From Pseudoalteromonas xiamenensis (GTDB taxonomy: Bacteria > Pseudomonadota > Gammaproteobacteria > Enterobacterales > Alteromonadaceae): a stretch of DNA of 64,000 nt. The translations under genes and the position numbers were made by a program. This document shows positions 17,530 through 48,509 of the stretch, in pieces (position 1 is the stretch's first letter; every line of letters begins with the position of its first letter). The stretch spans positions 3,394,001-3,458,000 of the forward strand of contig NZ_CP099917.1 in NCBI RefSeq assembly GCF_030994125.1. The letters run 5' to 3'. Below the pieces are notes generated by a model. The model did no database searches. It was not told the origin of the DNA and saw only the letters and a program-made list of their open reading frames with translations.

Positions 17530-18327
17530 ATGAAAGGGATGGGGAAAAGCAAAAAAGCGATACTAATCGTAACGACAATACTGGCTATGCCAGTATTGTC
17601 GGTTAAAGCCAATAACCAAGCTGACAGCATGCCAAATTTAGTTGAGAAATGGCTGCAATTAAGTGCGCAGCAACAGCGAGTTGAAAGCGAATGGGCGGCG
17701 GAAAAACCATTGTTAGAGCAACAGCTGCAATTGCTTCAACAAGAATTTGAAACATTAAATCGGAATGTCTCCTCGAAACAAGGGGGGCAATCTGAAGTCG
17801 CTCAGAAGCGTGAGTCGTTGGTTAGTGAACAGCAACGCCTTGAAAAACAACAATTCGAGTTGCAATCCGCGTTGAAATTCCATCGTAAACAATTGACCCA
17901 AATTGTTTCGCGTTTACCGCCAGTACTGCAAAATGCTTGGAATGAGACCTTGCTTAAATGGCAAGGAGACATCAGTGCACAAACGGATGCCAATCAGTTA
18001 CAAGATGTACTCGCGCTTTATCAACAGTGGGCTGATTTTCAAAAACGTATAGTGGTTCACGAAGCGCCAATTCAGCTCAATGGCGAAGAGTTTATGGTAG
18101 ATCAGCTTTATGTTGGCGTAAGCCAAGCGTGGTTTATTAGTAAAGATGGAAAAACCACTGGGGTAGGTGCGCCCAAGGGAACATCATGGGTTTGGACTGC
18201 CGTGAATGACTTAGATACTGCAGCACTGGTCAGCGCGATTGCAATGTATCGCAAACAGCAGCCGGCGTCTCTTATCCAGTTGCCTTACGTTGCAACACCG
18301 ACGTTAGGAGGCCCTTCAAATGGTTAA
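17530..18327 (+). CDS. DUF3450 periplasmic coiled-coil protein of a TonB2-type system
   Basis: 265 residues: signal peptide (residues about 8-28), a long Gln/Glu-rich coiled coil (about 35-125), then a globular end with EFMVDQLYVGVSQAWFISKDG and GTSWVWTAVNDLDTAALVSAI. This layout and length match DUF3450, whose members precede ttpC–exbB–exbD–tonB gene sets in vibrios and other marine bacteria. The stop overlaps the next start by 8 bases. It probably couples the transducer complex across the periplasm. That function is inferred from conserved context. Confidence 0.85.
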   Translation: MKGMGKSKKAILIVTTILAMPVLSVKANNQADSMPNLVEKWLQLSAQQQRVESEWAAEKPLLEQQLQLLQQEFETLNRNVSSKQGGQSEVAQKRESLVSEQQRLEKQQFELQSALKFHRKQLTQIVSRLPPVLQNAWNETLLKWQGDISAQTDANQLQDVLALYQQWADFQKRIVVHEAPIQLNGEEFMVDQLYVGVSQAWFISKDGKTTGVGAPKGTSWVWTAVNDLDTAALVSAIAMYRKQQPASLIQLPYVATPTLGGPSNG

Positions 18328-19600
18328 GCTTAACTTTACATTACCCGCTCTTTTGGCTGTTTCCTGCGTGTTTGCGAGTCTGGATGTGAATGCCGCATCT
18401 ACCGAACAAAGTCTACTAAACGATATTCAAAAAAGTCAGCAAGCGCTTGCTAAAACAACAGAGCAAATCCGTGTAGAACGTCGTCAACTTGGAAAAGCGT
18501 TATTTAAGCAATCTCAGGCAGTCGAAAAGTTGCGTGAACAAGCTGCGGTTGCTCAGCGCGTATTAGACGAACAAAATCTAAGTTTGAGTACGCTAGAGAA
18601 ACGTCTACAAACATGGAAAGAGCAAGCTCAGTATCAACAGCATATGCTCTCTACTTTCGCGCGTGACGTTAAAGTTGATACAGGTTCTGATTTTGAAGCG
18701 CAGTTAGACGCACTGAATGTTGTTGCCAAAAACATGGCTGAGAGTTTGACGCCAAAATGGCAATCTCAGTCTTTAGTACTCACAGATGGCAAAATTGAGC
18801 TGGGGCACATTCTAGATTTAGGTCCTGTAAAACTATACCAACATTCCGGTGAAGTTGGGCTGGCGTCGTTCATCGACAACACATGGCGTGCAGAATATGC
18901 CTATTCAGCAACGCAATCTCAGTCTTGGCAGGGTGAAAAAAATGCTCAGTTAGTGTTTGATCCAAGCCAAAGCCGCGCCCTTTTGCAAGCGCAAACCAAA
19001 GAAACCGTTTATCAGCACCTCACTAAAGGTGGTGTGTGGGTTATTCCGATTGTGCTATTTGCACTGTTCGCGTTGTGTATCGCGGCATACAAAGCGCTGC
19101 AATTGTGGCGACTTCCTAGTCTGCCAAGTGTTGCAGGGCTTCGTGTCTTGCAGTCCTCTCCTGAGCGATTTGCTGCAATGGGCATCGCTGGTCAACTTTT
19201 ACATGTGTGGCATCAATTCGCTCCGGGTCAGCAGCGTGACGACGAGTTATATAACACCTTGTTAGCCGCGCGTGAAAAGCTAGAACGTTATGTCGGTGCC
19301 ATCGCGATTACCGCATCCGTTGCGCCTTTGCTTGGTCTACTTGGTACGGTTTCTGGGATGATAGACACCTTCAAAATGATGACGTTGTTTGGCGCCGGTG
19401 ACCCTCAAGTCGTTTCAGGCGGAATTTCACAAGCGTTGATCACGACCGAACTCGGTCTTGTGGTTGCGATCCCTGCATTGATTTGTCATGCGTTACTTAA
19501 TCGCAAGGTAAAAAGTTATTACCATCAGTTGGAAAGCATCGCGTTGTCGTTGAGTCAGCAAGTCGTCGGCGCGGACAATATCACGAAGGAGGCCGCATGA
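18320..19600 (+). CDS. TtpC-like MotA/TolQ/ExbB channel protein with periplasmic coiled coil
   Basis: 426 residues. A signal peptide (to about residue 25) and coiled coil (30-110) precede a periplasmic domain, then a membrane helix (VWVIPIVLFALFALCIAAY), a cytoplasmic loop, and the paired ExbB helices: ASVAPLLGLLGTVSGMIDTF and LITTELGLVVAIPALICHALL. This is the arrangement of TtpC, the extra channel-like subunit essential in Vibrio TonB2 systems. It should act with the ExbB, ExbD and TonB proteins that follow. It overlaps the next gene by ATGA. Confidence 0.88.
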   Translation: MVKLNFTLPALLAVSCVFASLDVNAASTEQSLLNDIQKSQQALAKTTEQIRVERRQLGKALFKQSQAVEKLREQAAVAQRVLDEQNLSLSTLEKRLQTWKEQAQYQQHMLSTFARDVKVDTGSDFEAQLDALNVVAKNMAESLTPKWQSQSLVLTDGKIELGHILDLGPVKLYQHSGEVGLASFIDNTWRAEYAYSATQSQSWQGEKNAQLVFDPSQSRALLQAQTKETVYQHLTKGGVWVIPIVLFALFALCIAAYKALQLWRLPSLPSVAGLRVLQSSPERFAAMGIAGQLLHVWHQFAPGQQRDDELYNTLLAAREKLERYVGAIAITASVAPLLGLLGTVSGMIDTFKMMTLFGAGDPQVVSGGISQALITTELGLVVAIPALICHALLNRKVKSYYHQLESIALSLSQQVVGADNITKEAA

Positions 19601-19950
19601 ATGAGATCCTAACGAATCCATTGTGTTGGTTTATGTTTGTCGTGGCAGCGGCAAGTTATTACTACAGCTTTGTGTGTTTATTCAGTGAGCAAGTTTGCCC
19701 TAAAGTGATGTTGGGGCTTGATACAGCGCAAGTACTAACCGCGGCATTGCCGCTACTTGGGCTACTTGGTACGATTGTGGGGTTATTACAATCTTTCAAT
19801 GCATTATCTCTAGGATTAGGGGCAGACAGCGCCAGTTTAACCGCGGGTATTGCTGATGCCTTGTATACAACAGAACTGGGGTTACTGTTAGCTATCCCAG
19901 GTTGGTTACTCGGTTCACAAAAGCCTAAATCAAGCGGAGCTTTGAACTGA
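19597..19950 (+). CDS. Minimal ExbB-like proton channel subunit
   Basis: Only 117 residues, against about 175 or more for ExbB2 proteins. It keeps a first helix (residues 8-30), then ALPLLGLLGTIVGLLQSFNAL and ADALYTTELGLLLAIPGWLLG, the two helices that line the ExbB/TolQ pore. The large cytoplasmic loop is almost absent and there is no C-terminal cytoplasmic tail. Flanking reading frames are intact and overlap it at both ends (ATGA at each junction), so the shortness is not an obvious deletion. Likely the second channel subunit next to TtpC. Confidence 0.83.
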   Translation: MNEILTNPLCWFMFVVAAASYYYSFVCLFSEQVCPKVMLGLDTAQVLTAALPLLGLLGTIVGLLQSFNALSLGLGADSASLTAGIADALYTTELGLLLAIPGWLLGSQKPKSSGALN

Positions 19951-20351
19951 TGCAAAGCCGGCTCCAACATCGTTTAGAATCACAGGATAAAGGCATTGAT
20001 ATGTCGCCGTTAATCGACGTTGTATTTATTCTGCTGATTTTCTTTATTGTTACTACTGTATTTGTACGTGAAACAGGGGTTGAGGTTGATAAGCCTCAAT
20101 CCATGACAGCGAGTCAGATACCAAGTCGAGTTATCCTGCTTGGTATTACCGCGCAAGGTCAGGTGTTTTACGATGGTGCAAACATTGGTGTCGCGGGGAT
20201 TCGGGCTACGTTACAACCCTTGCTGGCACAAGATGATAAACCGGTGTTGTTGCAAGTTGATAAAACAGTACCGACGTCACTGCTCGTTCAGGTGATGGAT
20301 GAAGCCAAATTGGCTGGAGCCGCTGCCGTTAGTATCGCAACAAAGCAGTAG
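19950..20351 (+). CDS. exbD: ExbD-family biopolymer transport protein
   Basis: 133 residues: a short cytoplasmic start, one membrane helix (DMSPLIDVVFILLIFFIVTT) with the proton-carrying D23, and a periplasmic domain of about 85 residues (VILLGITAQGQVFYDGANI). Size and motif are standard for ExbD. It partners with the two ExbB-type subunits upstream and energises the TonB protein encoded next. Confidence 0.93.
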   Translation: MQSRLQHRLESQDKGIDMSPLIDVVFILLIFFIVTTVFVRETGVEVDKPQSMTASQIPSRVILLGITAQGQVFYDGANIGVAGIRATLQPLLAQDDKPVLLQVDKTVPTSLLVQVMDEAKLAGAAAVSIATKQ

Positions 20352-20361
20352 GCGCGCATTG

Positions 20362-21003
20362 ATGAAAGCAAATGTAAGTAAGCAAGTACAGCAACGGGCT
20401 GTTGCCGCCAGTTTGGTTTTAGTTGCTGCCTTGATGCTGCTGCTCAAAGGGGTCCAATTACTGCAAAGTGAAGTGGAGCCAACGTATACCGTTCGTGAAG
20501 TGGAACTGGCTTTGCCACTTCCACCGCCACCGCCACCACCGCCTGCAGCAGAACAACCGCAGCAATCGCAAATGTTGGCACTGGCAGTACCTGGCGCAGG
20601 AGCAAGTCTCCCTATCACGCTTGATTTAACGGCGCCTTCATTGGACGTCACTATTGATACACCTCAACTTAGTATTACCGATCCACAGTGGCAGGACGTA
20701 GAAGTTGATTGGCAAGCCGTTAATTTAGATTCACTGGATGGTCTGCCGAGTCTGCTGACACCTTTACGCGTGGTGTTTCCAAAGTCATTGGTAAGCCAGG
20801 GCGTTAAAACGGTTCTGGTTAAGTTGGATGTCGTGATAGACGAGCAGGGTGCAGTAACACTGGTGAGTGTTGTAAGCAATCCTTACCCTGAACTGAAACC
20901 GCAAATTGACAAGTTAGTGAAACAAAGTCGATTTACGGCGCCAAAACAAAATCAACAAGCGGTCAGAGCTCGTTTCGTCTGGCCAATTGAATTAACTCAA
21001 TAG
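20362..21003 (+). CDS. tonB: TonB-family energy transducer
   Basis: The ATG at 20362 is used as start, giving 213 residues; an in-frame start inside exbD would add 21 residues ahead of the membrane anchor. It has one N-terminal helix (AVAASLVLVAALMLLLKGV), a very short proline stretch (LPLPPPPPPPPAAE) and a C-terminal TonB domain (FPKSLVSQGVKTVLVKLDVVIDEQGAV–RFTAPKQN). The proline/lysine span is shorter than in classical TonB, like TonB2, whose reach is helped by TtpC. It contacts TonB boxes of outer-membrane receptors, probably including the siderophore receptor here. Confidence 0.88.
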   Translation: MKANVSKQVQQRAVAASLVLVAALMLLLKGVQLLQSEVEPTYTVREVELALPLPPPPPPPPAAEQPQQSQMLALAVPGAGASLPITLDLTAPSLDVTIDTPQLSITDPQWQDVEVDWQAVNLDSLDGLPSLLTPLRVVFPKSLVSQGVKTVLVKLDVVIDEQGAVTLVSVVSNPYPELKPQIDKLVKQSRFTAPKQNQQAVRARFVWPIELTQ

Positions 21004-21014
21004 TAAGAATTTAG

Positions 21015-22400
21015 ATGGTTAAGTTTTCTTTTATCTGGTTATCTCTCGGTCTGTTTAGTGCTGTGCCAAGTGCCTTTGCGGGTATTGATTACAGTCGCTC
21101 GGAATTGTTGCTGGAAGCTCCTTCAGTGTCTGTGCCTGTTTTTACTTATCGAGACAAACAACAAAGTTTGACCGTTGCACCTCACGAAGCCGCCTTTATG
21201 ACAGACCTAAGGCCACTGCTCGAAAAACAACAGTATGCGAAAGTGGCCGAAGCATTTTCAGGTCGAGTCATTGAAAAAGACAGTCCGGCCCTTTTACAGT
21301 TACAAGGACAGGTTCTACTTACGTTAAAACGTTACCCAGAAGCCATTAAGGTGCTGAATGCAGCCGTATCGAAAGCGCCGGAGCTAGTCAGTGCGCAGCG
21401 CAGTTTAGCGCTTGCCTACATTTTAAATAAGCAACCAAACGAAGCAAGAGCGCCAATCCAAACGGCGTTAAGTTTGGGGGCAAACGAAGCTGCGCTATAC
21501 GGTCAACTCGCGTTTTTGAATTTACAGCAATATGGGCCTTGGAGTGCGATTGCAGGTTACCGTCAGGCGCTTTTTTTAGAACCAACCAACGTGCAGTGGA
21601 AACAAGGTTTGGCGCATGCGCTAACTCAAGCCCATGCATACAGTGAGGCCGGTGCCCTGCTAGCAGAACTGATCAATCAAGATACTGACAACGTGCAGTG
21701 GTGGCTACAAGCTGCATTCTTAGAATTAAATCAGCAGCAATTCGAAAAAGCGTTACATCGCTTGGACGTAGCTATGCGATTGGCTAAAGTGCAAAAGTCG
21801 ACGAGCTACAACGCGGACAATTTGTTGCTACTCGCGAAATTACACATTCAATATGGCAGTACGCAAGCGGGTCTGACAGCACTTGATTCCGCACTTAGTC
21901 AAACGGACAAAAAAGACACAGCAAAAGCGGAGCATGATGTTGTGCAATTGGCCGCGTGGTTTGCGTCTTTGGAAAAATGGAGTGCCTTGCAAGACTTATT
22001 TACCTTGAGTGAAAAACGTAAACTGAGCAAAGCGTCGTCTGCAATGTGGCTCGCGAGAGCGAAACACGCATTAGCAACAAAGCAAGTTTCAAAAGCTGAA
22101 AAGCTGTTACTTGATGGATTATCGACGTCACCGAGTGACGGCAATGGCTTGCTGTTACTGGCCAATTTGTATCGCGAGGCAGGCAATAGCGTGGATGCCG
22201 TAGTTTATTATCAGCGTGCCAGTGCCATTGAAGAAGTCAAAGAGGCTGCACTCCTAGGCCAAGCTCAACTCTATATTGATGACAAAGACTACGCCAATGC
22301 TGTTGCGTTACTTCGCAAAGTGCTAAAACACAACCCAGAGCGCCATGAACTTCGTGCGAACATTAAAAACCTAGAACAGTTGATGCGTTATGAAGGTTAA
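21015..22400 (+). CDS. Tetratricopeptide-repeat periplasmic protein of the TonB2-type operon
   Basis: 461 residues with a signal peptide (residues 1-22, ending PSAFAG). From about residue 70 to the end it is built of TPR helices, e.g. ALLQLQGQVLLTLKRYPEAIKVL, GANEAALYGQLAFLNLQQYG, and EAALLGQAQLYIDDKDYANAVALL. TPR proteins of this size terminate ttpC–tonB2 operons in several marine genera. It probably scaffolds the complex in the periplasm. It overlaps the PepSY gene by 11 bases, so the two are translationally coupled. Confidence 0.87.
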   Translation: MVKFSFIWLSLGLFSAVPSAFAGIDYSRSELLLEAPSVSVPVFTYRDKQQSLTVAPHEAAFMTDLRPLLEKQQYAKVAEAFSGRVIEKDSPALLQLQGQVLLTLKRYPEAIKVLNAAVSKAPELVSAQRSLALAYILNKQPNEARAPIQTALSLGANEAALYGQLAFLNLQQYGPWSAIAGYRQALFLEPTNVQWKQGLAHALTQAHAYSEAGALLAELINQDTDNVQWWLQAAFLELNQQQFEKALHRLDVAMRLAKVQKSTSYNADNLLLLAKLHIQYGSTQAGLTALDSALSQTDKKDTAKAEHDVVQLAAWFASLEKWSALQDLFTLSEKRKLSKASSAMWLARAKHALATKQVSKAEKLLLDGLSTSPSDGNGLLLLANLYREAGNSVDAVVYYQRASAIEEVKEAALLGQAQLYIDDKDYANAVALLRKVLKHNPERHELRANIKNLEQLMRYEG

Positions 22401-38516: not shown

Positions 38517-38628
38517 TTCGAGTTCAATACGCTTCACTAACGATTCTAACTCGATCGAAAAGCAAACATTCTAAGAATATACTGCTAAAATCTAGGATCA
38601 GATTTTGGAATTCTTTACAAGGATTGAT

Positions 38629-40125
38629 ATGTCCAATCAACTTTTGCTCGGGCCAATTTTAGGTCTTGAATCTGACACGCTTTACACCACATTAGTGGTT
38701 ACAGACGATACGGTGTCCAGTGTGTTACTCGAAATCCATCAAGATACTTTGTCGTTTGAACTGGTGGGTACTTTACATATTGGGCGGGTTTGGCGAGTTG
38801 AATTTGACCCGCATCTTGAACCAAACTCCTGTGTGAATTACCGAATACTGATAGAAAATGAATTCGCGACCAGTAAATCAGGAGAGTCTCAGTGGTCGTT
38901 TCATGTTCCTGCACAAACTGAAACACCTAAACTCGCTTATGCCTCGTGCAATGGTTTTTCAGATTTCAAATTAATGACCTCAACGGAGCGGCCGTATGCG
39001 CTTTGGCAAGCGATGTCTGAACAGCATGACGAAGCACCTTTTTCGTTGCTACTAATGGGCGGCGATCAGATTTACGCTGATTCGATTTGGACAATGGTTC
39101 CATCACTTAAACAATGGAATGAATTGCCAAGAGAAAAGAAAATTAAAGCCAAGGCAAGTAAACAAATGAAAGCGCAAATTCGCCGTTTTTATAGCGAGTT
39201 GTACTTGGACCGTTGGAACAAACCAGACGTCGCTAAAATGCTCGCGTCTATTCCCTCTATTATGATGTGGGATGATCACGATATTTTCGATGGATGGGGA
39301 AGTTACCCTGAAGACATTCAAACGTGTGAGGTTTATGGGGCCATTTTTGCCGAAGCGAAAAACCATTTCGATTTACTGCAATTACGCAGTGCCAACAAAA
39401 ACTCCACCTTATTAAGGAAGGCTTCAGCAAATGTAAACCAAGCTGAACCATGCCATTTTGGTGCTGTTGTTCAGTTTAAGAACTATCAAATATTAGTACT
39501 CGATAATCGCAGCGAACGTACATTAAATCGCGTCATGAGCGAAGCTCATTGGCAGGATGTCATTCACTTTTTGGACAATTGTACTTCGGGTGATTTACTC
39601 GTAATGACAGGCGTGCCCGTGGTGTACCGTGATTTCTCGTTTGCAGAGCGAGCGGTCGATGCAACACCGTGGGAAGAAGAAGTTACCGATGACTTGAAAG
39701 ATCACTGGCGAGCAAAAGAACATGAAGGTGAGCGAAGCCGACTGATCATGCGGTTGCTGGCAAACGCAAAGCGTCGCCAAGGTAAGACGGTATTGTTGTC
39801 AGGCGATGTACATGTTGGCGCACTAGGTATTATACGAGACGAAAGTCAGTCAGACATCACGCGTATTCACCAAGTGATTTCATCAGGTATAGTGCATCCA
39901 TCACCAACATTTATGCAATGGTTGGGTATTTGTGCACTGACCAACGATGACGATGAATATTTAGATGGGGCCAAACATATTGTGGCACGCATGATTAAAC
40001 CGACAGGCGGTGATAAATATATTCGTACGCGTAATTTCACTACATTGAAAATGGGCACTGACCACAAGATATGGGTTAACTGGGTTATTGAAGGAAAAGA
40101 TAAACCTGTTTACGCGATAGACTGA
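38629..40125 (+). CDS. Cytoplasmic PhoD-like metallophosphatase
   Basis: The start is the ATG at 38629 behind AAGGA; the frame is open eight codons earlier but from a TTG. The 498-residue product lacks a signal peptide, unlike classical Tat-exported PhoD. An N-terminal Ig-like domain (about 1-100) precedes the metallophosphatase core: YASCNGFSD, LLLMGGDQIYADS, IMMWDDHDIFDGWGSYP and VLLSGDVHVGALG, which provide the metal ligands. It should hydrolyse phosphomonoesters or diesters; the substrate is unknown. It neighbours the phosphonate genes, but I saw no Pho box upstream. Confidence 0.88.
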   Translation: MSNQLLLGPILGLESDTLYTTLVVTDDTVSSVLLEIHQDTLSFELVGTLHIGRVWRVEFDPHLEPNSCVNYRILIENEFATSKSGESQWSFHVPAQTETPKLAYASCNGFSDFKLMTSTERPYALWQAMSEQHDEAPFSLLLMGGDQIYADSIWTMVPSLKQWNELPREKKIKAKASKQMKAQIRRFYSELYLDRWNKPDVAKMLASIPSIMMWDDHDIFDGWGSYPEDIQTCEVYGAIFAEAKNHFDLLQLRSANKNSTLLRKASANVNQAEPCHFGAVVQFKNYQILVLDNRSERTLNRVMSEAHWQDVIHFLDNCTSGDLLVMTGVPVVYRDFSFAERAVDATPWEEEVTDDLKDHWRAKEHEGERSRLIMRLLANAKRRQGKTVLLSGDVHVGALGIIRDESQSDITRIHQVISSGIVHPSPTFMQWLGICALTNDDDEYLDGAKHIVARMIKPTGGDKYIRTRNFTTLKMGTDHKIWVNWVIEGKDKPVYAID

Positions 40126-40263: not shown

Positions 40264-40824
40264 ATGAATCGAATATTGGTTACTTTTGTTTCTTTACTGA
40301 CTGTTTTCAATGCAGTAAACATGCTTGCCCATGCGGCGGAATCTCAATCTAACCCTCAAACTTCCACACCAAATAAACCGAGTTATTACCGAGATTGTTC
40401 CGTGATGAAGTTTGAGGACATTGATGAAGCAGAATTAACCCAAGCAGAGCGCATTTTACTCAAAGAACAAAAGCTTGAAGCAAGCTTAAACAGCTCTGCA
40501 GAGTGCATGGATGAGGCTATGCAGTCCAACCAACAGCGCCTTCGAGAGTCAAATAGCCGCAGTGGAGAGTCTTCTTCAGTTAGCGAAAGTCATGCGAAAG
40601 AGCAAAACGAGGAGTCACGTCCAGAGGAGATGAATTCAGTTTCATCACAACAAAAAGAAACTAATCCCACCCAGACGTCGAATTCCAAACAACACATCAA
40701 GGGGAAAGTCTCTGGCGGCTCTTCCGCGGTGTGTGATGCTATCAAGCAAGGTTTAGCGCAGGCAAAAACCGACAATGAAAAACAACATTTTGAAAAACTA
40801 GCAAAAGAATACCGCTGCGAGTAA
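40264..40824 (+). CDS. Secreted protein, first gene of the vWA/ExbB-like operon
   Basis: 186 residues. Signal peptide at 1-26 (ending MLAHAAES). The mature N-terminus has a small conserved-looking part (YYRDCSVMKFEDIDEAELTQAERILLKEQK), then a low-complexity Ser/Glu/Gln region (about 90-145), and a C-terminal helical unit with two cysteines (AVCDAIKQGLAQAKTD and AKEYRCE) that could form a disulfide. No known domain recognised. It leads the operon by 13 bases, so it probably serves the same envelope machine, perhaps as a periplasmic accessory. Confidence 0.7.
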   Translation: MNRILVTFVSLLTVFNAVNMLAHAAESQSNPQTSTPNKPSYYRDCSVMKFEDIDEAELTQAERILLKEQKLEASLNSSAECMDEAMQSNQQRLRESNSRSGESSSVSESHAKEQNEESRPEEMNSVSSQQKETNPTQTSNSKQHIKGKVSGGSSAVCDAIKQGLAQAKTDNEKQHFEKLAKEYRCE

Positions 40825-40837
40825 AAGGATACACGCA

Positions 40838-42124
40838 ATGAAAGTCAATTTTTTATCTCAACTTGGAAAACACCTAAACGTCACTCGAGTGGTTTTTTTC
40901 GGTGTCTTGGTGTTTTTATCGGGTTGCCAATCTACTTCTAGTAATCAGCTCAGTCGAGTGACCACTGTTGGACCAAGCATGTCAGGCCCAAGTAGTGCCT
41001 CCTTGAAAGGCACAATGGAAAAGCCATATCCGTATGATGGTCGAGTTTTTATGGACGTGGCAATTCCTGTTTTTGACCCTGGTTTTCCACTAACTAAGAG
41101 TGGTCAAATCGATGATGAAGAAATGGTTGAGCAAGATATTTGGCCACAAGTTCGTCGCTTGGAAGCGAATCGTTTCGCCATCGAGACTAAAAAGGCCCTC
41201 GCAACAACAAAAGCGTTTGGGGCAATTAGTGTTACGCCAGATGCCTCCTCATCGGCAGATCTTTTTATAATTGGTCGGATAAACCATTCTGATGCAGAAG
41301 TTGTGAATATCGGCGTCCGTGTAATAGATGCAAGCAACGTGATTTGGGGTGAAAAAACCTTCGAACATCAAGTAAATGAAGGATTTTTCCGAGATGCATT
41401 ACGCCAAAGTGAAGACCCTTATGGCCCTGTATTCCGCGATATTGCAAATTATGTATTTCGATTAATGGTGAAACGTAGTGATGCAGAAAAAGAGCAAATA
41501 CAGCAGATTGCGGATATGCGATATGCGGCAATGTACAGCCCTGAAAGCTTTGGATCTTATCTTAACCAAAATCGAAAACAGCAATTTTCATTAAATGGCT
41601 TACCGTCTGAACAAGATCCTATGTTCCTGCGAATTGATCAGGTTAGGGCTAAAGATGAACAGTTTGTTGACAATCTGCAGACCAATTATGAAGCGTTTTA
41701 CGCTGAAACGAACGAAGCATACCGTACTTATCAACGAGAGGCTCTGCCGATTGCAGCTGAGATCCGCCGTAAGAAGGCGCAACGTACTAAAGCACAAGCA
41801 TGGGCTGCAGTTGGTATCATCGGTGGCGTGTTATTAAGTAAGAATTCGGATTCAACCGCTGGAAATATCGGTGCTGTCGTGGCCACAGCGATTGGCGCAT
41901 ATAATTTGGCGGATGCAGTTCAGCAAAATAAAGCGATAGGGGCTCAGCGAGAAATGCTCGAAGAGCAAGGCCAAAATCTAGACATTAAAGTGACACCACA
42001 AGTTGTTGAGTTTAACGATCAAACAATTGAATTGAGTGGTACAGCGAAAGAGCAATATGGTCAACTGCGCCAAAAATTGTATGAAATTTATCAGTTAGAA
42101 GCGACACCGGATACTGCGCTGTAA
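40838..42124 (+). CDS. Outer-membrane-type lipoprotein of the vWA/ExbB-like operon
   Basis: 428 residues with a lipoprotein signal ending in VFLSGCQS. The part at about 60-200 (RVFMDVAIPVFDPGF, ETKKALATTKAFGAISVTP, ADLFIIGRINHSDAEVVNIGVRVIDASNVIWG) has the strand–helix rhythm of CsgG/TolB-N/LpoB-like domains, though this is only a visual similarity. A glycine-rich hydrophobic hairpin (VGIIGGVLLSK–IGAVVATAIGAYNLADAVQQ) near residues 325-365 might insert in a membrane. It ends in a TAATG overlap with the next gene. Likely the outer-membrane anchor of the system. Confidence 0.75.
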   Translation: MKVNFLSQLGKHLNVTRVVFFGVLVFLSGCQSTSSNQLSRVTTVGPSMSGPSSASLKGTMEKPYPYDGRVFMDVAIPVFDPGFPLTKSGQIDDEEMVEQDIWPQVRRLEANRFAIETKKALATTKAFGAISVTPDASSSADLFIIGRINHSDAEVVNIGVRVIDASNVIWGEKTFEHQVNEGFFRDALRQSEDPYGPVFRDIANYVFRLMVKRSDAEKEQIQQIADMRYAAMYSPESFGSYLNQNRKQQFSLNGLPSEQDPMFLRIDQVRAKDEQFVDNLQTNYEAFYAETNEAYRTYQREALPIAAEIRRKKAQRTKAQAWAAVGIIGGVLLSKNSDSTAGNIGAVVATAIGAYNLADAVQQNKAIGAQREMLEEQGQNLDIKVTPQVVEFNDQTIELSGTAKEQYGQLRQKLYEIYQLEATPDTAL

Positions 42125-43566
42125 TGGAAAAAATGACTCCAAATGGTTCGTCGCTCGACTCTACATTAAATGCGGTAAAACATCAGCAGCAACAGAAGTG
42201 GAAGGTGCTAGGCGGTGTGGCTCTGGTTAGCTTGTTATTGGTGATAGGTGTTTATATCTCATTTGAATCGAGTGACGTTACATCAAAGCTAAACTCCGAC
42301 GAGCAGTCACAAGTGCAACAAGCGAGCGAAGTTACACAAGCGCAGCGCCACCAATTGCAGGAAAATTTACTGGCGCTGCAAAATGCACTTGATAGGGTTC
42401 AGGCAGACGAGGCGTTGTCAAAATGGGCTGCTAAACGAATTGATTCGGTGTCGGCTGGTTTACAGGGCGCTTATGCTCACTATGCACAGGGACAATTTAC
42501 TGGATTATCGGATCAATTGGAGGAGTTGTTAGATGAAGTACAACGTATCGCAAACGACTATCAAACCACGCTAGAAAGCACCTATCAGGCTGGTATCATT
42601 GCGTTCAACAAGATGGAATTTGACGCCGCAAAGGGGTTGCTTGAACATGTACTTCTAATCAACCCTAACCACGTTGATGCTGAAAATCTACTGACGCGTA
42701 TTGCTATTCAGGGCGATGTTGCGAAATGGTTTGAACAATTCAAAGCAGCAAAAGCAAAAGGTGACTTTCAAACGCAAATTAGGGCGTTGGAACAAATAGT
42801 AAGTGCTGATACACAGAATCAAGAGGCACACGAATTGCTCGCGCAAGTCAAGCAACAAAGTGCAGTTAACCACTTTGAGAGATTAGTTGAACAGGTGCTT
42901 GTAGCCATCAAAAACCAACGGGTTGAAGAGGCTAAAAATGCGCTACGCAAAGCCCAGCAAGCCGAGCCGCAAAATCCAATTATAGCGACATTAAATGCAC
43001 AAATTCAGGCGCTTTCGGATAACCAGCAGACCCAGCAATTTAGCGAACAACTCAAATTGTTCCAACAAAATGATGAGTGGGAAACGGTTGCGCTTATTGC
43101 CAACAAAGCAACCGCTCGGTTTCCTGACAATGTGAGTTTTGCGCAAGTGAGTCAGACTGCAGAAGAAATACTGCGTGCGGATAAAAAGCTCGCTAGTTAT
43201 TTATCGCGTGCCGAAAGGTTGAGTGATGTTGGGATTAAAACAAAAGCCACGGAGTTTCTAAAATCCATTGAGCCGTTATTGCTCCAGAGTCCTAAATTGT
43301 CGAAACGCGCAGACCTGTTGAGCCGAGAAGTTGAAAGTTATAGTTCAAAAATCAATGTGACAGTGCATAGTGATAACCGCTCAACACTCAAGGTTTTGGG
43401 TGTTGGGGTGATAGGTGAAATTAAAAGTAAGCAAATTGAGCTTAAACCAGGTCGGTATCGTTTTGAAGCAAGTCGAAAAGGCTACAAAACTGAAATTCTA
43501 GAGGTTGATGTCCAGCAGACGATAAAGCCACTCGAAGTAACGCTTATGTGCAAGGAGAAAGTGTAG
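42124..43566 (+). CDS. Inner-membrane TPR protein with C-terminal PEGA-like domain
   Basis: 480 residues. One membrane helix near 26-44 (VLGGVALVSLLLVIGVYISF), then a long periplasmic part: coiled coil (60-150), TPR-like helices (GIIAFNKMEFDAAKGLLEHVLLINPNH and further copies to about 330), and a final PEGA-type beta domain (LKPGRYRFEASRKGYKTEILEVDV). PEGA domains are found in envelope-anchored proteins. The start overlaps the preceding stop (TAATG). Probably a periplasmic scaffold between the inner membrane and the lipoprotein upstream. Confidence 0.78.
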   Translation: MEKMTPNGSSLDSTLNAVKHQQQQKWKVLGGVALVSLLLVIGVYISFESSDVTSKLNSDEQSQVQQASEVTQAQRHQLQENLLALQNALDRVQADEALSKWAAKRIDSVSAGLQGAYAHYAQGQFTGLSDQLEELLDEVQRIANDYQTTLESTYQAGIIAFNKMEFDAAKGLLEHVLLINPNHVDAENLLTRIAIQGDVAKWFEQFKAAKAKGDFQTQIRALEQIVSADTQNQEAHELLAQVKQQSAVNHFERLVEQVLVAIKNQRVEEAKNALRKAQQAEPQNPIIATLNAQIQALSDNQQTQQFSEQLKLFQQNDEWETVALIANKATARFPDNVSFAQVSQTAEEILRADKKLASYLSRAERLSDVGIKTKATEFLKSIEPLLLQSPKLSKRADLLSREVESYSSKINVTVHSDNRSTLKVLGVGVIGEIKSKQIELKPGRYRFEASRKGYKTEILEVDVQQTIKPLEVTLMCKEKV

Positions 43567-43567
43567 T

Positions 43568-45566
43568 ATGGCTTTTGAGCATACCATCGACAGTCAAATT
43601 AAAAAGGCAAAAACACGTCGAAAAAGTCTAGTGCTTGTAGGCGTGACGATATTCATCGCCTTTTTGAGTGTTTATTTGTCGGTTCTATTTCTAGTGAAAG
43701 GTTTTAACGTTTCAATTTCACCCATAGACGCACAGCAAGAAGCAAGCATTTCGATAAATAAAGGCCTTGGCATTATACGTAACCAAACCGCTTATGTTCT
43801 ATTTGGTGAAGCAGAACTTCAAATTGAAGCAACGACGTTTAAATCAAAAGTGATTCAGGTAAATGCACAAACCCCGTCGAATCTACTGCCCTTGAAATTG
43901 ATTGAATTATTGCCCAAACCAGCTGTACTTCGTTTTACAACCGATGTCGAATCGGTGCACTGGAAACAGGAAAACACGTGGCAATGCCCTTGAAATTGAG
44001 TTGGCTCCAGGACGCCATGAAATTATCGCCAAACATGAATGGTATGAAAACACCGTACTCAATTACGATGCAGTCAAAGCAAGTAACGATGAGGTTCAAC
44101 TTCATCCGACGAAACGCGCAGGCACCGTGACGATTGCTTCTGTGCCAAAGGGGGCTGCTGTCAGTATAAATGGAAATGTAGTTGGGATAACGCCCTATCA
44201 AGCAACGTGGAGTGCAGGCAACTACCAACTTGGTATTCAAGCCGAGGGGTATGAACAATCGTTGGATCAGTTTTCACTAAATCAGTCGATTACTGCAATT
44301 GAACGCACCTATACGTTGATGCCATTACAAGCGACGCTCAAGATGACACTTTTACCAGAAGGCGGGTTGTTAACCGTCAACGGTATACCTAAAACACCCG
44401 ATGAGGGCGCTAAAATCAGTGTCGATGCTAATACGTTGCTCACTGTGCAATACCAAAAACAAGGATTTATTACACAAGTTCGACGCGTTACGTTATCGCC
44501 AAAGCAACAAGGCGAATTAGCGCTGTCGCTTGAACCCGACTTGGGTCAAGTGAAGTTTTCCAGCAACGTTAATGCGACGGTTAGTGTCAATGGCAAAACG
44601 CTCGGTCACACGCCTTTGTCCCTGTCGTTACAGACGGTGCCACTCGATGTCACCTTTTCAAAACAAGGCTACCGAAGCCAAACTAGAACCATTTTGCCAG
44701 TGAGGAAAAACGCGCTGAATGTTGAAGTGGAGTTACTCACTGAATTTGAGGCGCGTCGAAAAGAGGGGAAGCCATCGGCGGTATCCAAACTCGGTATTGA
44801 TTTTATCAAAGTCGCAGGAGGCTCATTTGAAATGGGGTCGCCGGTGAACGAAGCTGAGCGCTTTAGAGATGAACATCAGTTATCTGTAGAATTGACGAAC
44901 GCTTTTTTGGTTGCGACAACAGAAATTACAGAAGCGCAATATAACTCGTTTGATAAGTCCGTTACACCTTCGAACTTACCGATGGTCAACGTGACTTGGC
45001 TTGACGCAGTGCGCTATTGTAATTGGTTAAGCGAACGAGAAGGGTTGAAACCGTTTTATCGAGTACAAGGTAGCAGAGTATCAATTCCAGAATTAACAGA
45101 AGGCTATCGGCTGCTATCGGAAGCAGAGTGGGAATTTGTTGCTAAACATTTCCAACGTGCGGCGCGCACAACCTACGTTTGGGGCAATGAGGACCGTGTT
45201 CGTAAAGGACAAGGCAATTTTGCTGATGAAAGTATACGAGGAAAGCAAACCTTTATTTTAGAAAAGTATCAAGATGGTTTTGCACAAAGAGCCCCTGTGA
45301 AAAGTTTTAATGCAGACCGGAATGGATTGTATGACCTTGATGGCAACGTGCGTGAATGGGTGAGCGATGGGTATCAAGTGATGAAAGTGGGTGATGCTAA
45401 CGTTTTGATAAATCCAATTATAGCAATAGAGGAACTGAACCACGTCATTAAGGGTGGGTCGTTCAAAACCGGGCGGTTAAAGATGCTCCGCGCAAGCGTT
45501 AAAGGCAAAAGCGATGGTCAATTAGAAGACGTTGGTTTTAGGATTGCACGCTACGAGGCACGTTAG
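43568..45566 (+). pseudogene. PEGA-repeat / SUMF1-domain membrane protein, interrupted by a one-base frameshift
   Basis: Two frames make one protein of about 665 residues. The first (43568-43993) gives a membrane helix (SLVLVGVTIFIAFLSVYLSVLF) and a beta domain; the second, open to 45566, gives three PEGA repeats (VTIASVPKGAAVSINGNVVG, LLPEGGLLTVNGIPK, KFSSNVNATVSVNGKTLGHTP) and a SUMF1/FGE-type domain (FIKVAGGSFEMGSP, VNVTWLDAVRYCNWLSE, NGLYDLDGNVREWVSDGY). Removing one A from the A4 at 43971-43974 joins them as WKQETRGNALEIELAPG. The SUMF1 part lacks the C-terminal active-site cysteine of formylglycine-generating enzymes (GGSFKTGRLKMLRASVKG has none), so it is probably a binding domain. Sequencing error is the likeliest cause of the break. 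Confidence 0.82.
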
Positions 45567-45596
45567 CCAAACTGGTTATAGGAAATAGGAATACAG

Positions 45597-45704
45597 ATGA
45601 AAAAGAAACTATTGCTTGGCTTGACGCTGCTCATGTTGATGGGCGCCGCAAGCGCGTATTTCGTGTCTTTGGACGCACCACAAGATTTTCCCGTGAATAT
45701 TTAG
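45597..45704 (+). CDS. 35-residue membrane peptide in the vWA/ExbB-like operon
   Basis: An ATG at 45597 with AGGA six bases upstream opens a 35-codon frame filling the gap between the SUMF1 and ExbB-like genes. It encodes a basic start and a hydrophobic stretch (KKKLLLGLTLLMLMGAAS) followed by a short polar tail (DAPQDFPVNI), so either a single-pass micro-subunit or a secreted peptide. It ends 10 bases before the next start. Its position, ribosome site and exact fit argue for a real gene. Confidence 0.6.
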   Translation: MKKKLLLGLTLLMLMGAASAYFVSLDAPQDFPVNI

Positions 45705-45714
45705 AGGCGGTGGT

Positions 45715-46488
45715 ATGAGTAACAGAACATCAAATGCAACGATGAACCCACCTTTATGGTTAAGCGCCTTGGTCTTGCTCGGCTGTTTCACATTGATGCA
45801 GGTGCTGTTTGCAGGTTGGATTACGCCTAAAGCAGAAGCGGTATTAATGGCGCAAGGGTCGCAATCGCTTTCTTCTGTCTGGGTTATCTTGAAAGACATG
45901 GAACAGCAGATCTGTTTCTCACTGCTGTTTTATTGTTTGTTTCTGATGGGCTATAAACTCTGGCGATTACTGGATGAAGAAGCCATTTATACCTGTGATT
46001 TTCTAGCAGACTACGACAAGTCAAAACCATTGGATATAGACATTGCCCTACATGAGTTGGAGTCGTCTACATTCCGTGAAAATCCAGCGATGTTAACGTG
46101 GATTAATTGTATCCGCCGCTATAAAAACACCCGCAATGTACAGCATGCAGCGAGCGCCATCGCTTCTTCTGTTGACAGTCTTGCCGCTCAATTAGAAAGC
46201 GGAAATAACATGATCCGATATATTATTTGGGCAATCCCAAGCATTGGTTTCGTCGGTACGGTTAGAGGAATAGGACAAGCGTTAGCGCAGGCTGATAAGG
46301 CGCTTGCAGGCGACATTTCAGGCATGACTGCCTCACTCGGTGTTGCCTTCAACTCCACGTTAGTTGCGCTGTTTATTTCGCTTATTTTGATGTACTTCAT
46401 GCATTTACTTAACAGTCGCCAAGATTCTATGGTGTTGAAAACTCAAGAAAGTTGTGAGCGTCATTTACTTGCTCATCTTCATCAGTAG
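45715..46488 (+). CDS. MotA/TolQ/ExbB-family proton-channel protein
   Basis: 257 residues with three membrane helices: about 15-35, 63-83, and a long pair formed by AIPSIGFVGTVRGIGQALAQAD and ASLGVAFNSTLVALFISLILMYFMHLL. GFVGTVRGI and the small-residue/threonine face of the last helix are the hallmark of the ExbB/TolQ/MotA pore. The loop between helices 2 and 3 is about 90 residues. No separate exbD or tolR gene is adjacent; instead two membrane-anchored vWA proteins follow, which probably take that place. Confidence 0.88.
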   Translation: MSNRTSNATMNPPLWLSALVLLGCFTLMQVLFAGWITPKAEAVLMAQGSQSLSSVWVILKDMEQQICFSLLFYCLFLMGYKLWRLLDEEAIYTCDFLADYDKSKPLDIDIALHELESSTFRENPAMLTWINCIRRYKNTRNVQHAASAIASSVDSLAAQLESGNNMIRYIIWAIPSIGFVGTVRGIGQALAQADKALAGDISGMTASLGVAFNSTLVALFISLILMYFMHLLNSRQDSMVLKTQESCERHLLAHLHQ

Positions 46489-46500
46489 AAGATATTGCTC

Positions 46501-47559
46501 ATGAGAAAAAAGCGAGCGGTAGTCGATGGCTTCAATATGTCATTCTTAGATGTAATGGCATGTGGCTTGGGCGCTGTAATCCTCATTTTTATTTTGGTGG
46601 ACTTTTCGGGGGGACACCCTCCGACGGAGGAAGAAACTCGGCTAGAGCAATCACTGCAGTCGACTCAAGAAAAAATTACAGAATACACGCGTTCTCATGA
46701 CTCTTTATTGGCTCAACTGGAAACCATTAAGTCTAAGTTGAAAACCGAAAATGCGAAGGATGCGGCTGCAAATGATGAGCAAGCCGCGCTTCTTAATGAG
46801 ATATCGACACAATTAGCCATAATTGCAAAGCTCGAAGCCGAACTCAAAGCCGTATCCAGTATTCCAGCCAAAGAATCTACGCTTGAAATACAGGGTAAAT
46901 ATGCACAGCAGTACCTGACAGGGATGAAAGTCGAAGGCAAGCACATAGTTGTTTTGCTTGATAAAAGTGCATCGATGATGGACGACAATTTGGTGGGGGT
47001 GTTGAGTGCGATGGCGCTCAATGATAAAGCTCGAAAGGCAAAAGCAAAATGGCAACGAACATTACGAGTTGTAAATTGGTTGTTCGCGCGAGTGCCATCA
47101 GATTCTGAAGTTTCTCTTATCGCATTTTCAGATACGGCGAAAACGCTCGGACAAAGTAAAATAATTAGTGGAAAGGACAGTCGCCAGTTAATTGCTTTAG
47201 CACAGTCTGCACATGACGTGGTGCCAAACGGAGGAACGAATTTGCAACTTGGCCTACAAACCGCGTTGTCTACACAGCCGAATGTGAGTGATATTTACTT
47301 AATTACGGATGGCTTACCAACACTTGGAGATGGTTTGAATCTTCGCTGTAAAGGCTTACTCACCAATAAAAAATCCATTTCTTCAGAATGCAGACAACAG
47401 TTGTTATTAGAAACGATCTCGCGATTTAAAAAATCAGCGCATATGAACGTGATATTGCTGCCAATTGAAGGCGACCCCTATGCTTCGTCAATGTATTGGA
47501 GTTGGACTCAAGTCACAGGTGGTCGCTTTTTAGCGCCTGCACAGGAGTGGCCACAATGA
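46501..47559 (+). CDS. Membrane-anchored vWA protein 1 (ExbD/TolR-like anchor)
   Basis: 352 residues from the ATG at 46501. The N-terminus is basic, then one membrane helix FNMSFLDVMACGLGAVILIFILV with D17 near its cytoplasmic end, closely resembling the ExbD/TolR helix (MSPLIDVVFILLIFF). A coiled coil follows (about 45-120), then a vWA domain with an intact MIDAS: D154-x-S156-x-S158 (VLLDKSASMM), a threonine in NGGTNLQLGL and aspartate in YLITDGLPTLGD. It should bind a divalent cation and a protein ligand in the periplasm. It overlaps the second vWA gene by ATGA. Confidence 0.85.
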   Translation: MRKKRAVVDGFNMSFLDVMACGLGAVILIFILVDFSGGHPPTEEETRLEQSLQSTQEKITEYTRSHDSLLAQLETIKSKLKTENAKDAAANDEQAALLNEISTQLAIIAKLEAELKAVSSIPAKESTLEIQGKYAQQYLTGMKVEGKHIVVLLDKSASMMDDNLVGVLSAMALNDKARKAKAKWQRTLRVVNWLFARVPSDSEVSLIAFSDTAKTLGQSKIISGKDSRQLIALAQSAHDVVPNGGTNLQLGLQTALSTQPNVSDIYLITDGLPTLGDGLNLRCKGLLTNKKSISSECRQQLLLETISRFKKSAHMNVILLPIEGDPYASSMYWSWTQVTGGRFLAPAQEWPQ

Positions 47560-48509
47560 AGAAAATTGCCCGACCGCCGCTCGAGATTTTTACGTTAAGT
47601 TTTTTAGACATTATCTCCTGTGCATTTGCTGCAATAGTGATGCTAGTGTTGATGTCCAAAAAGGGCGATGAGGATGTAGCCATTATCTCTACTCCAATCC
47701 AAAATTTGATAAAAGAGGTCGCCCAAGCTAAAGCGTCGCTTGATAGCCTTGTAAAGCAAGTAGACGTAACCCAACAAGAGGTGAACAACGCAGAGTTAAC
47801 CTTAGCCGAGCGCAGGGCACAGTCAAACCAACTGAGTGGTGCTGTCCCTCGAGCAGAAGCGACACTCCAGCAATTGCGTGACCAAGCAGCGAGTCTTTTG
47901 CAGGAAGTGCGCCTAGCCAATGCCCGTCTCAACAACGAAAGTAAACCGGCTATGCCAGATCAAGCCGTTGGGGGAATACCAACCGATGCGGATTACGTCA
48001 TTTTCGTAATTGATAATTCGGGATCGATGTCATCTGGTGGAAAGTGGAAGCAGGTTGTGTCAGTCGTATCCGATATTTTGAAAAATCACCCACAAATGAA
48101 AGGCTTTCAGATTTTAGCGGCGGATGGTGAACACATGTATTCAGGCCGAGAAGGGCGTTGGTTAACCGATACGCCAACATTCAGACAGAAAGTGATATCG
48201 CGCTTGACCAGTTTTACTGGGGGAGCGAGTGCCCCTGAAGTCGGCATAAAACGAGCTCTTAGTTTGTACAAAAAAGAACCAGGCAAAGTCTCGTTGTATG
48301 TGTTTGGTGATGACTACCGACCTGGCACGCTGGATGACGTCGTAACAGAAATCACACGTCTGAATCGGGATAGTCAGGGAAAATCGAAGATGCGTATACA
48401 TGGTGTTGGTTTTTATCGGCCTCATGATGGTAATGCCGCACAATTCGCAGCGTTCATGCAGGCTGTTGCAAAGCGTAATCGAGGCGCTTTTATTGGTTTA
48501 GACTTCTAA
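47556..48509 (+). CDS. Membrane-anchored vWA protein 2 (ExbD/TolR-like anchor)
   Basis: 317 residues from the ATG at 47556, which has AGGAG 8 bases upstream and overlaps the previous stop; the frame is open further upstream but inside the first vWA gene. Anchor FTLSFLDIISCAFAAIVMLVLMS carries D18 at the same place as D17 of its neighbour. A coiled coil (45-125) leads to a vWA domain with D153-x-S155-G-S157 (VIDNSGSMSSGG) and VSLYVFGDDY. The usual MIDAS threonine region reads TGGASAPEVGI, so this metal site may differ. The two vWA proteins could form a heterodimer over the ExbB-like channel. Confidence 0.85.
   Translation: MKKIARPPLEIFTLSFLDIISCAFAAIVMLVLMSKKGDEDVAIISTPIQNLIKEVAQAKASLDSLVKQVDVTQQEVNNAELTLAERRAQSNQLSGAVPRAEATLQQLRDQAASLLQEVRLANARLNNESKPAMPDQAVGGIPTDADYVIFVIDNSGSMSSGGKWKQVVSVVSDILKNHPQMKGFQILAADGEHMYSGREGRWLTDTPTFRQKVISRLTSFTGGASAPEVGIKRALSLYKKEPGKVSLYVFGDDYRPGTLDDVVTEITRLNRDSQGKSKMRIHGVGFYRPHDGNAAQFAAFMQAVAKRNRGAFIGLDF

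Follow-up and report, generated by a model that had tools for sequence, protein, structure and literature searches.

Gene organisation of the locus

The window analysed here is a stretch of 64,000 nucleotides from Pseudoalteromonas xiamenensis (bases 3394001-3458000 of contig 1 in a genome of 4.6 Mb and two contigs). At 40264-48509 it encodes a cassette of eight tightly packed genes, all on the forward strand and separated by gaps of 1-30 bases or by overlaps of 1-4 bases, as described in the initial annotation. The ExbB-type channel, the two von Willebrand factor A (vWA) proteins and the PEGA and SUMF1 domains named there have been confirmed by Pfam (MotA_ExbB, 2.5e-14; VWA_2, 5.2e-10 and 2.2e-6; PEGA, 2.9e-26; FGE/SUMF1, 2.9e-36), as have the tetratricopeptide repeats (TPR).

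The first gene, SEC (40264-40824), encodes an exported protein of 186 residues, which is of low complexity and rich in Ser, Gln and Glu. It is followed by LIPO (40838-42124), a protein of 428 residues with a lipobox (..LSGC) and a predicted core similar to CsgG, PelC and the N-terminal domain of TolB (TolB-N) that precedes long helices, and by TPRPEGA (42124-43566), a TPR protein with one N-terminal transmembrane helix as read by eye. The PEGA-SUMF1 gene, PEGASUMF (43568-45566), lies in two pieces in different frames. The first piece (43568-43993) has a transmembrane anchor and the first domain and ends at the frameshift, and the second (43902-45566) comprises the PEGA repeats and a domain of the fold of SUMF1 and formylglycine-generating enzyme (FGE). 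A micropeptide of 35 residues of the exported type, with the C-terminal tail SLDAPQDFPVNI, is encoded at 45597-45704. EXBB (45715-46488) encodes a channel subunit of 257 residues with the TolQ/ExbB fold and an additional N-terminal helix. VWA1 (46501-47559) and VWA2 (47556-48509) overlap by 4 bases, and their products each consist of a transmembrane helix bearing an aspartate (Asp17 in FLDVMACGLGA and Asp18 in FLDIISCAFAA, respectively), a coiled-coil-like neck and a vWA domain, with a full metal ion-dependent adhesion site (MIDAS) in VWA1 and MIDAS-type residues in VWA2. The nearest named protein to VWA1 is from Pseudoalteromonas xiamenensis (94% identity). A scan for promoters and terminators returned 10 and 11 sites compared with 14.4 and 9.1 in shuffled sequences, and hence nothing of note.

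Conservation of the cassette as one unit

Relatives have been identified by searching 84,980 species genomes with an alignment of VWA1 (A1) by way of two short VWA1 motifs, and the best 80 of 224 were considered. Iterated profiles of the seven genes other than the micropeptide were built from the same loci that they were used to score; their weakest member match is 3.5e-21, with the exception of one stray TPR match in locus L075 that lies outside the cassette. The order SEC-LIPO-TPRPEGA-PEGASUMF-EXBB-VWA1-VWA2 and the strand are identical in 65 of the 65 eligible loci, which are those with 6.9 kb of sequence on the upstream side and 0.9 kb on the downstream side. All seven genes are present in 7 of the remaining 15 loci, and contig ends cut the other 8. 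Of 86 loci, 78 match the SEC profile, the poorest match kept being 3.5e-21. Since the order is conserved in every eligible locus, a chance assembly of the genes is excluded and the block is one unit. The proposal that an ExbB-type channel and a pair of vWA proteins belong to a conserved trans-envelope set is borne out.

Co-occurrence, which had been suggested as a check, has also been found for VWA1 and LIPO in a sample of 370 genomes of the same class, the window's own included. VWA1 is encoded in 29 of them (E<1e-60), LIPO in 26 and both in 25. Four genomes with VWA1 have no LIPO match (G135, G248, G334 and G337), and one of the LIPO genomes (G226) is without VWA1 and has broken pieces only. 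Weak VWA1 matches in 25 of the 54 genomes of this class search (E>1e-9) were dropped as generic vWA or coiled-coil proteins. Pairwise distances among the seven genes correlate at 0.81-0.95 over 76 loci, part of which may be explained by common ancestry, and the median identity is 39-47%.

The 80 relatives span Alteromonadales, Methylophaga, Nitrosomonadaceae, Rhodospirillales, Mariprofundus, Nitrospina, Desulfobacteraceae and one Binatota bin, and the cassette also occurs in Rheinheimera and Pseudoalteromonas. Cultured bacteria whose cassette is intact include Rheinheimera pacifica, Idiomarina abyssalis and a Methylophaga.

The channel and the paired vWA proteins

A single-chain model of EXBB predicts the TolQ/ExbB (TolQ/MotA-type) fold, and T182 and T215, which align with the pore threonines of this family, are conserved in 86 of 86 loci. 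The N-terminal helices of both vWA proteins bear the transmembrane aspartate typical of ExbD and MotB, again in 86 of 86 loci for each protein; in 12 of the 86 copies of VWA1 the residue appears only in the frame upstream of the called start. As read by eye, the transmembrane stretches of the window's VWA1 and VWA2 contain no histidine and thus no SHLS/His motif. A sequence search of the PDB with VWA1 gave three matches, all of them weak.

The channel gene and the vWA pair are adjacent in all eligible loci. The genome encodes four ExbD matches, one of them inside the window, and each lies beside its own ExbB/TolQ gene; a distant ExbD as the partner of EXBB has therefore been rejected. Neither refuting condition of the initial annotation, rare co-occurrence of the genes or pairing of the channel with a distant exbD/tolR gene, is borne out. 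The absence of ExbD and TonB noted in the initial annotation is correct for the block but not for the window, which contains a Ton-type module at 17530-22400 with a DUF3450-like protein, a large ExbB, a small ExbB, ExbD, a TonB-like protein and a TPR protein (family names besides ExbB and ExbD assigned by eye).

The vWA proteins had been regarded as partners to which an ExbD-less channel passes its force. Their pairing with the channel stands, but they are themselves likely to be the B subunits, because the N-terminal helix bears the ExbD/MotB aspartate. To judge by these residues, VWA1 and VWA2 most likely form a paired axle in place of ExbD, with ion binding as a putative function of the aspartates.

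The micropeptide

The small frame between PEGASUMF and EXBB was listed without comment in the initial annotation as a 35-residue membrane peptide, and its tail has proved to be strongly constrained. In all 84 testable loci (L057 and L082 are cut) its last five residues read [FL]Px[DNS]I, the final I and the P fourth from the end being invariant. Of the 26,543 frames with 30 or more codons in those loci, counted for the window over 30001-58000 only, no others have this end. The window's micropeptide has a signal-type hydrophobic stretch and an A-x-A site before the conserved tail, and a loosely defined A-x-A-like site is found 9-26 residues from the end in 80 of the 84 loci. Lengths are mostly about 35-95 residues, with the start codon chosen by us.

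In the last 15 codons, differences number 12,805 at third positions versus 4,859 and 2,861 at the other two, and 9,469 are synonymous versus 5,179 that are not, over 1,437 pairs that are not independent. A protein-database search with the micropeptide, taken to an E-value of 10, yielded 598 matches, and the tail is present in 120 of 120 among the matches listed. Pfam and NCBIfam contain no family matching the 19 members scanned. The micropeptide was identified in 10 of 13 further loci; those in which it was not found are L115, L116 and L117, the last of them decayed. The type-2 clusters described below encode a form in which a start resembling a signal peptide and an extended linker lead up to this tail, which argues for a periplasmic location of the tail. 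The micropeptide is under strong constraint and seems to be a fixed component of the cassette.

The lipoprotein, TPR and PEGA-SUMF1 proteins

Residues 65-214 of LIPO are predicted in a single-chain model to have a core fold like those of FlgT, PelC, CsgG and TolB-N; by sequence, no PDB match better than E 0.7 was obtained. The protein would be located at the outer membrane and is probably assembled as a ring.

The TPR protein had been described as having PEGA and TPR parts. The TPR part is confirmed, but of 18 family members only one, which is not the window's own, matches PEGA (E 0.0062), so that a C-terminal PEGA-like motif is at best tentatively assigned. A sub-threshold Alkyl_sulf_dimr match falls on the TPR stretch.

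The domains of the PEGA-SUMF1 protein are as first described, but the gene is not intact. The protein is one continuous chain in most relatives, including a Pseudoalteromonas xiamenensis database protein (P0122) of 667 residues that is 90% identical. Comparison with this protein suggests a net, out-of-frame loss of about 17 bases in the window, a length estimated at the protein level. Such a loss exceeds a typical base-calling slip, and the split may be real or an assembly fault. Because of the split, the window's copy of the cassette may be inactive, or else the assembly is wrong. The gene is likewise split in L079 and in L095, a metagenome bin.

In the PDB search the SUMF1 domain matches FGE structures (1e-27, 100 bits) and PorK/GldK (about 1e-25, 93 bits), and it is named FGE or nonheme iron enzyme in databases. 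However, the FGE catalytic cysteine pair is not conserved in 80 sequences. Only three columns contain at least 5 cysteines (positions 34, 38 and 494 of the 673-residue L025 copy), and none of them lies in its last 179 residues, which we take to be the region where the FGE pair sits. A function as FGE has therefore been rejected. In NCBIfam, the window's piece matches GldK best (7.3e-25); with 88.1 bits against a cut-off of 350, and with PorK/GldK scoring no higher than FGE in the PDB, a GldK homologue has likewise been rejected.

Variants and genomic neighbourhood

Type-2 clusters (L021-L024, L106, L107, L113 and others) encode an extra Hsp70-like protein, mostly between EXBB and VWA1, and two additional lipoprotein-like proteins, mostly downstream. 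In some of them the SEC start is of lipoprotein type, as read by eye. The Hsp70-like gene (L021:9395-10750), with relatives in L022-L024, L106, L107, L111 and L113-L115, encodes a protein with a profile match to DnaK (6.4e-5). Among 11 members, one of which (L108) was included by eye, Pfam identifies FHA in 2 and HSP70 in 1; the copies of L021 and L022 have no Pfam match. L105, L109 and L110 are without the Hsp70-like gene, yet have the longer micropeptide. EXBB is placed after VWA2 in L111 and L114, and the cluster is incomplete in L114 and L115. An integrase-like gene lies within the L114 cluster (L114:5163-6254), where LIPO is missing.

Among 35 other genomes of the genus 4 encode the cassette. 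One of these is of type 1 and the other three are of type 2, and from these few carriers in two types, gain and loss of the cassette look frequent. L117 is a decayed remnant in which the LIPO and TPR genes are broken and motor genes were not found, which suggests that the set was lost together. With regard to spread by plasmids, which has been rejected, PLSDB has no cassette match at 1e-20, and one protein-database match (P0073) carries a plasmid label.

Clustering of 765 flanking open reading frames from 86 loci revealed no cassette-specific family among clusters of at least 8 loci. The only two of this size, a kinase-like cluster (19 loci) and a C39-type ABC transporter-like cluster (14 loci), both read from sequence, look like general families and were not added to the cassette. 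The C39-type genes, similar to peptide exporters, occur in 14 of 86 loci at a median distance of 5 kb; this may be due to chance, though the genes could conceivably be connected with the micropeptide. A PhoD-like phosphatase is encoded directly 5' of the window's cassette (38605-40125) and is absent from the flanking families of at least 8 loci.

Proposed mechanism and alternative explanations

Ion-driven motors of the 5:2 type are known to drive flagella, gliding and the uptake of nutrients, and also serve secretion, defence against phages and the upkeep of the outer membrane. The eight genes probably encode a proton-driven trans-envelope machine around such a motor, working like TolQR or GldLM. 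This reading is founded on the observed gene set, its order and conservation, the aspartates, the threonines and the peptide tail, to which models add the predicted folds of EXBB and LIPO.

We infer the stoichiometry, the rotation and the contacts, the formation of a ring, the position of LIPO at the outer membrane and the final role as follows. Five EXBB subunits would form a ring whose pore holds one VWA1 and one VWA2 helix, the aspartates being used as in ExbD, TolR and MotB. Ion flow would turn or shift the vWA pair, so that the two heads move in the periplasm on their coiled-coil necks. Reversible binding of the heads to the TPR and PEGA-SUMF1 proteins could extend through these to LIPO. 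The exported micropeptide, whose free C-terminus is fixed, probably serves one such domain as a ligand for docking or assembly. The final role would most likely be an energised process at the outer membrane, for instance export, assembly or a remodelling of the envelope.

A more specific form of this proposal is offered tentatively, as a possibility with somewhat less than even weight. The cassette may represent a class of trans-envelope system not assembled before, in which a proton motor with a heterodimer of metal-binding vWA proteins as its axle acts on a lipoprotein ring at the outer membrane and on a SUMF1-fold protein that has lost its catalytic cysteines. The nearly invariant micropeptide tail FPxDI would be a ligand or latch for the vWA MIDAS or a PEGA/SUMF1 site, and in one branch the Hsp70-like protein, at least sometimes with FHA, would exert cytoplasmic control.

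A gated ion leak or sensor, in which binding of an envelope signal by the vWA domains opens the EXBB channel and no force reaches the outer membrane, is considered unlikely. A regulated-channel mode of working has been suggested for Zorya, and weak PADLOC matches to ZorA (0.0012) and ZorB (0.0035), the patchy distribution of the cassette and the Hsp70-like gene as a possible cytoplasmic signalling part are in its favour. However, no other Zorya components are found among the nine proteins scanned, and Zorya itself has been rejected; moreover, the cassette always includes an exported peptide and a lipoprotein whose fold is of the ring type. A static scaffold that ties together the inner membrane, wall and outer membrane, with EXBB as a structural ring passing little or no ion flow, would suit the cysteine-less SUMF1 domain and the TPR, PEGA, vWA and SUMF1-fold domains in general, which often have binding or structural roles. 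It is nevertheless improbable, as such a scaffold does not need the two threonines and both aspartates that are kept in every locus at so low an overall identity.

That the channel works with one of the distant ExbD/TolR proteins, the vWA genes being chance neighbours or a separate adhesin pair, is highly unlikely despite the four ExbD genes, since these adjoin channel genes of their own, and the vWA pair adjoins EXBB in all 65 eligible loci and already bears the ExbD aspartate. Equally remote is a sulfatase-activation or secretion-enzyme cluster around FGE, for which the FGE alignments, database names and the Alkyl_sulf_dimr match speak, but not the missing cysteines, the nearly equal PorK/GldK match or the block itself, in which Pfam identifies no sulfatase domain above cut-off.

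Comparison with known systems

The initial annotation knew of no named system of this composition. The motor core of a TolQ homologue with paired vWA proteins is, however, already predicted in the accessible text of PMC12204202 (Mol Biol Evol 2025), which describes TPH-vWA TolQ-type motors, AlphaFold 3 models included, from a search seeded from Idiomarina. These comprise a tolQ homologue beside an unlike vWA pair with a transmembrane aspartate and without tolR/exbD, all of which the cassette shares, along with the lack of an SHLS/His motif in the transmembrane helices of the window's own vWA proteins, and the first vWA family is said there to be without reported deletion phenotypes. A partial protein labelled Idiomarina loihiensis (P0067) is among the cassette VWA1 matches. 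The available main text does not mention PEGA, SUMF1 or sulfatase and assigns a TPR gene to the other vWA family, and its passages contain no description of the lipoprotein, the micropeptide, the secreted protein or the variant with Hsp70/FHA. Likewise, the accessible part of PMC9389320 does not mention vWA. No account of the full cassette, its FlgT/PelC/CsgG/TolB-N-like lipoprotein, the cysteine-less SUMF1 domain or the micropeptide was found in the literature covered, most subscription papers, preprints and supplements lying outside it.

The published motor prediction becomes a defined gene set with candidate partners. It would be a further ion-driven motor with a rigid parts list across Pseudoalteromonas, Rheinheimera, Methylophaga, Mariprofundus, Nitrospina and others, which makes its role testable in cultured strains, and the fixed free C-terminus of the micropeptide offers a small handle for locating the moving contact.

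Compared with TolQRA-TolB-Pal, the block has by Pfam no TolR, TolA, Pal or TolB beta-propeller, and vWA heads stand in their place; similarly, the ExbD/TolR and TonB/TolA of the Ton and Tol-Pal systems are missing from the cassette, the ExbD matches of the genome lying elsewhere. The GldLM motor works with a GldK/PorK-GldN/PorN track or ring in type 9 secretion and gliding, according to the accessible text of PMC12635249. Like it, the cassette places an ion-driven motor beside a SUMF1-fold periplasmic protein, but its SUMF1 domain is fused to PEGA and membrane-anchored, and no GldM or GldN family is among its NCBIfam matches. Unlike ZorAB of Zorya, the channel of 257 residues is without the long ZorA tail, and the block contains no effector genes. 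With the lipoproteins of the CsgG/PelC/TolB-N type, LIPO shares the modelled core fold. With the 5:2 motors MotAB, ExbBD, TolQR and ZorAB, the cassette shares an A subunit of the TolQ/MotA fold with conserved pore threonines and B-type proteins with one transmembrane helix and an aspartate, the five-to-two stoichiometry and ion-driven motion being putative.
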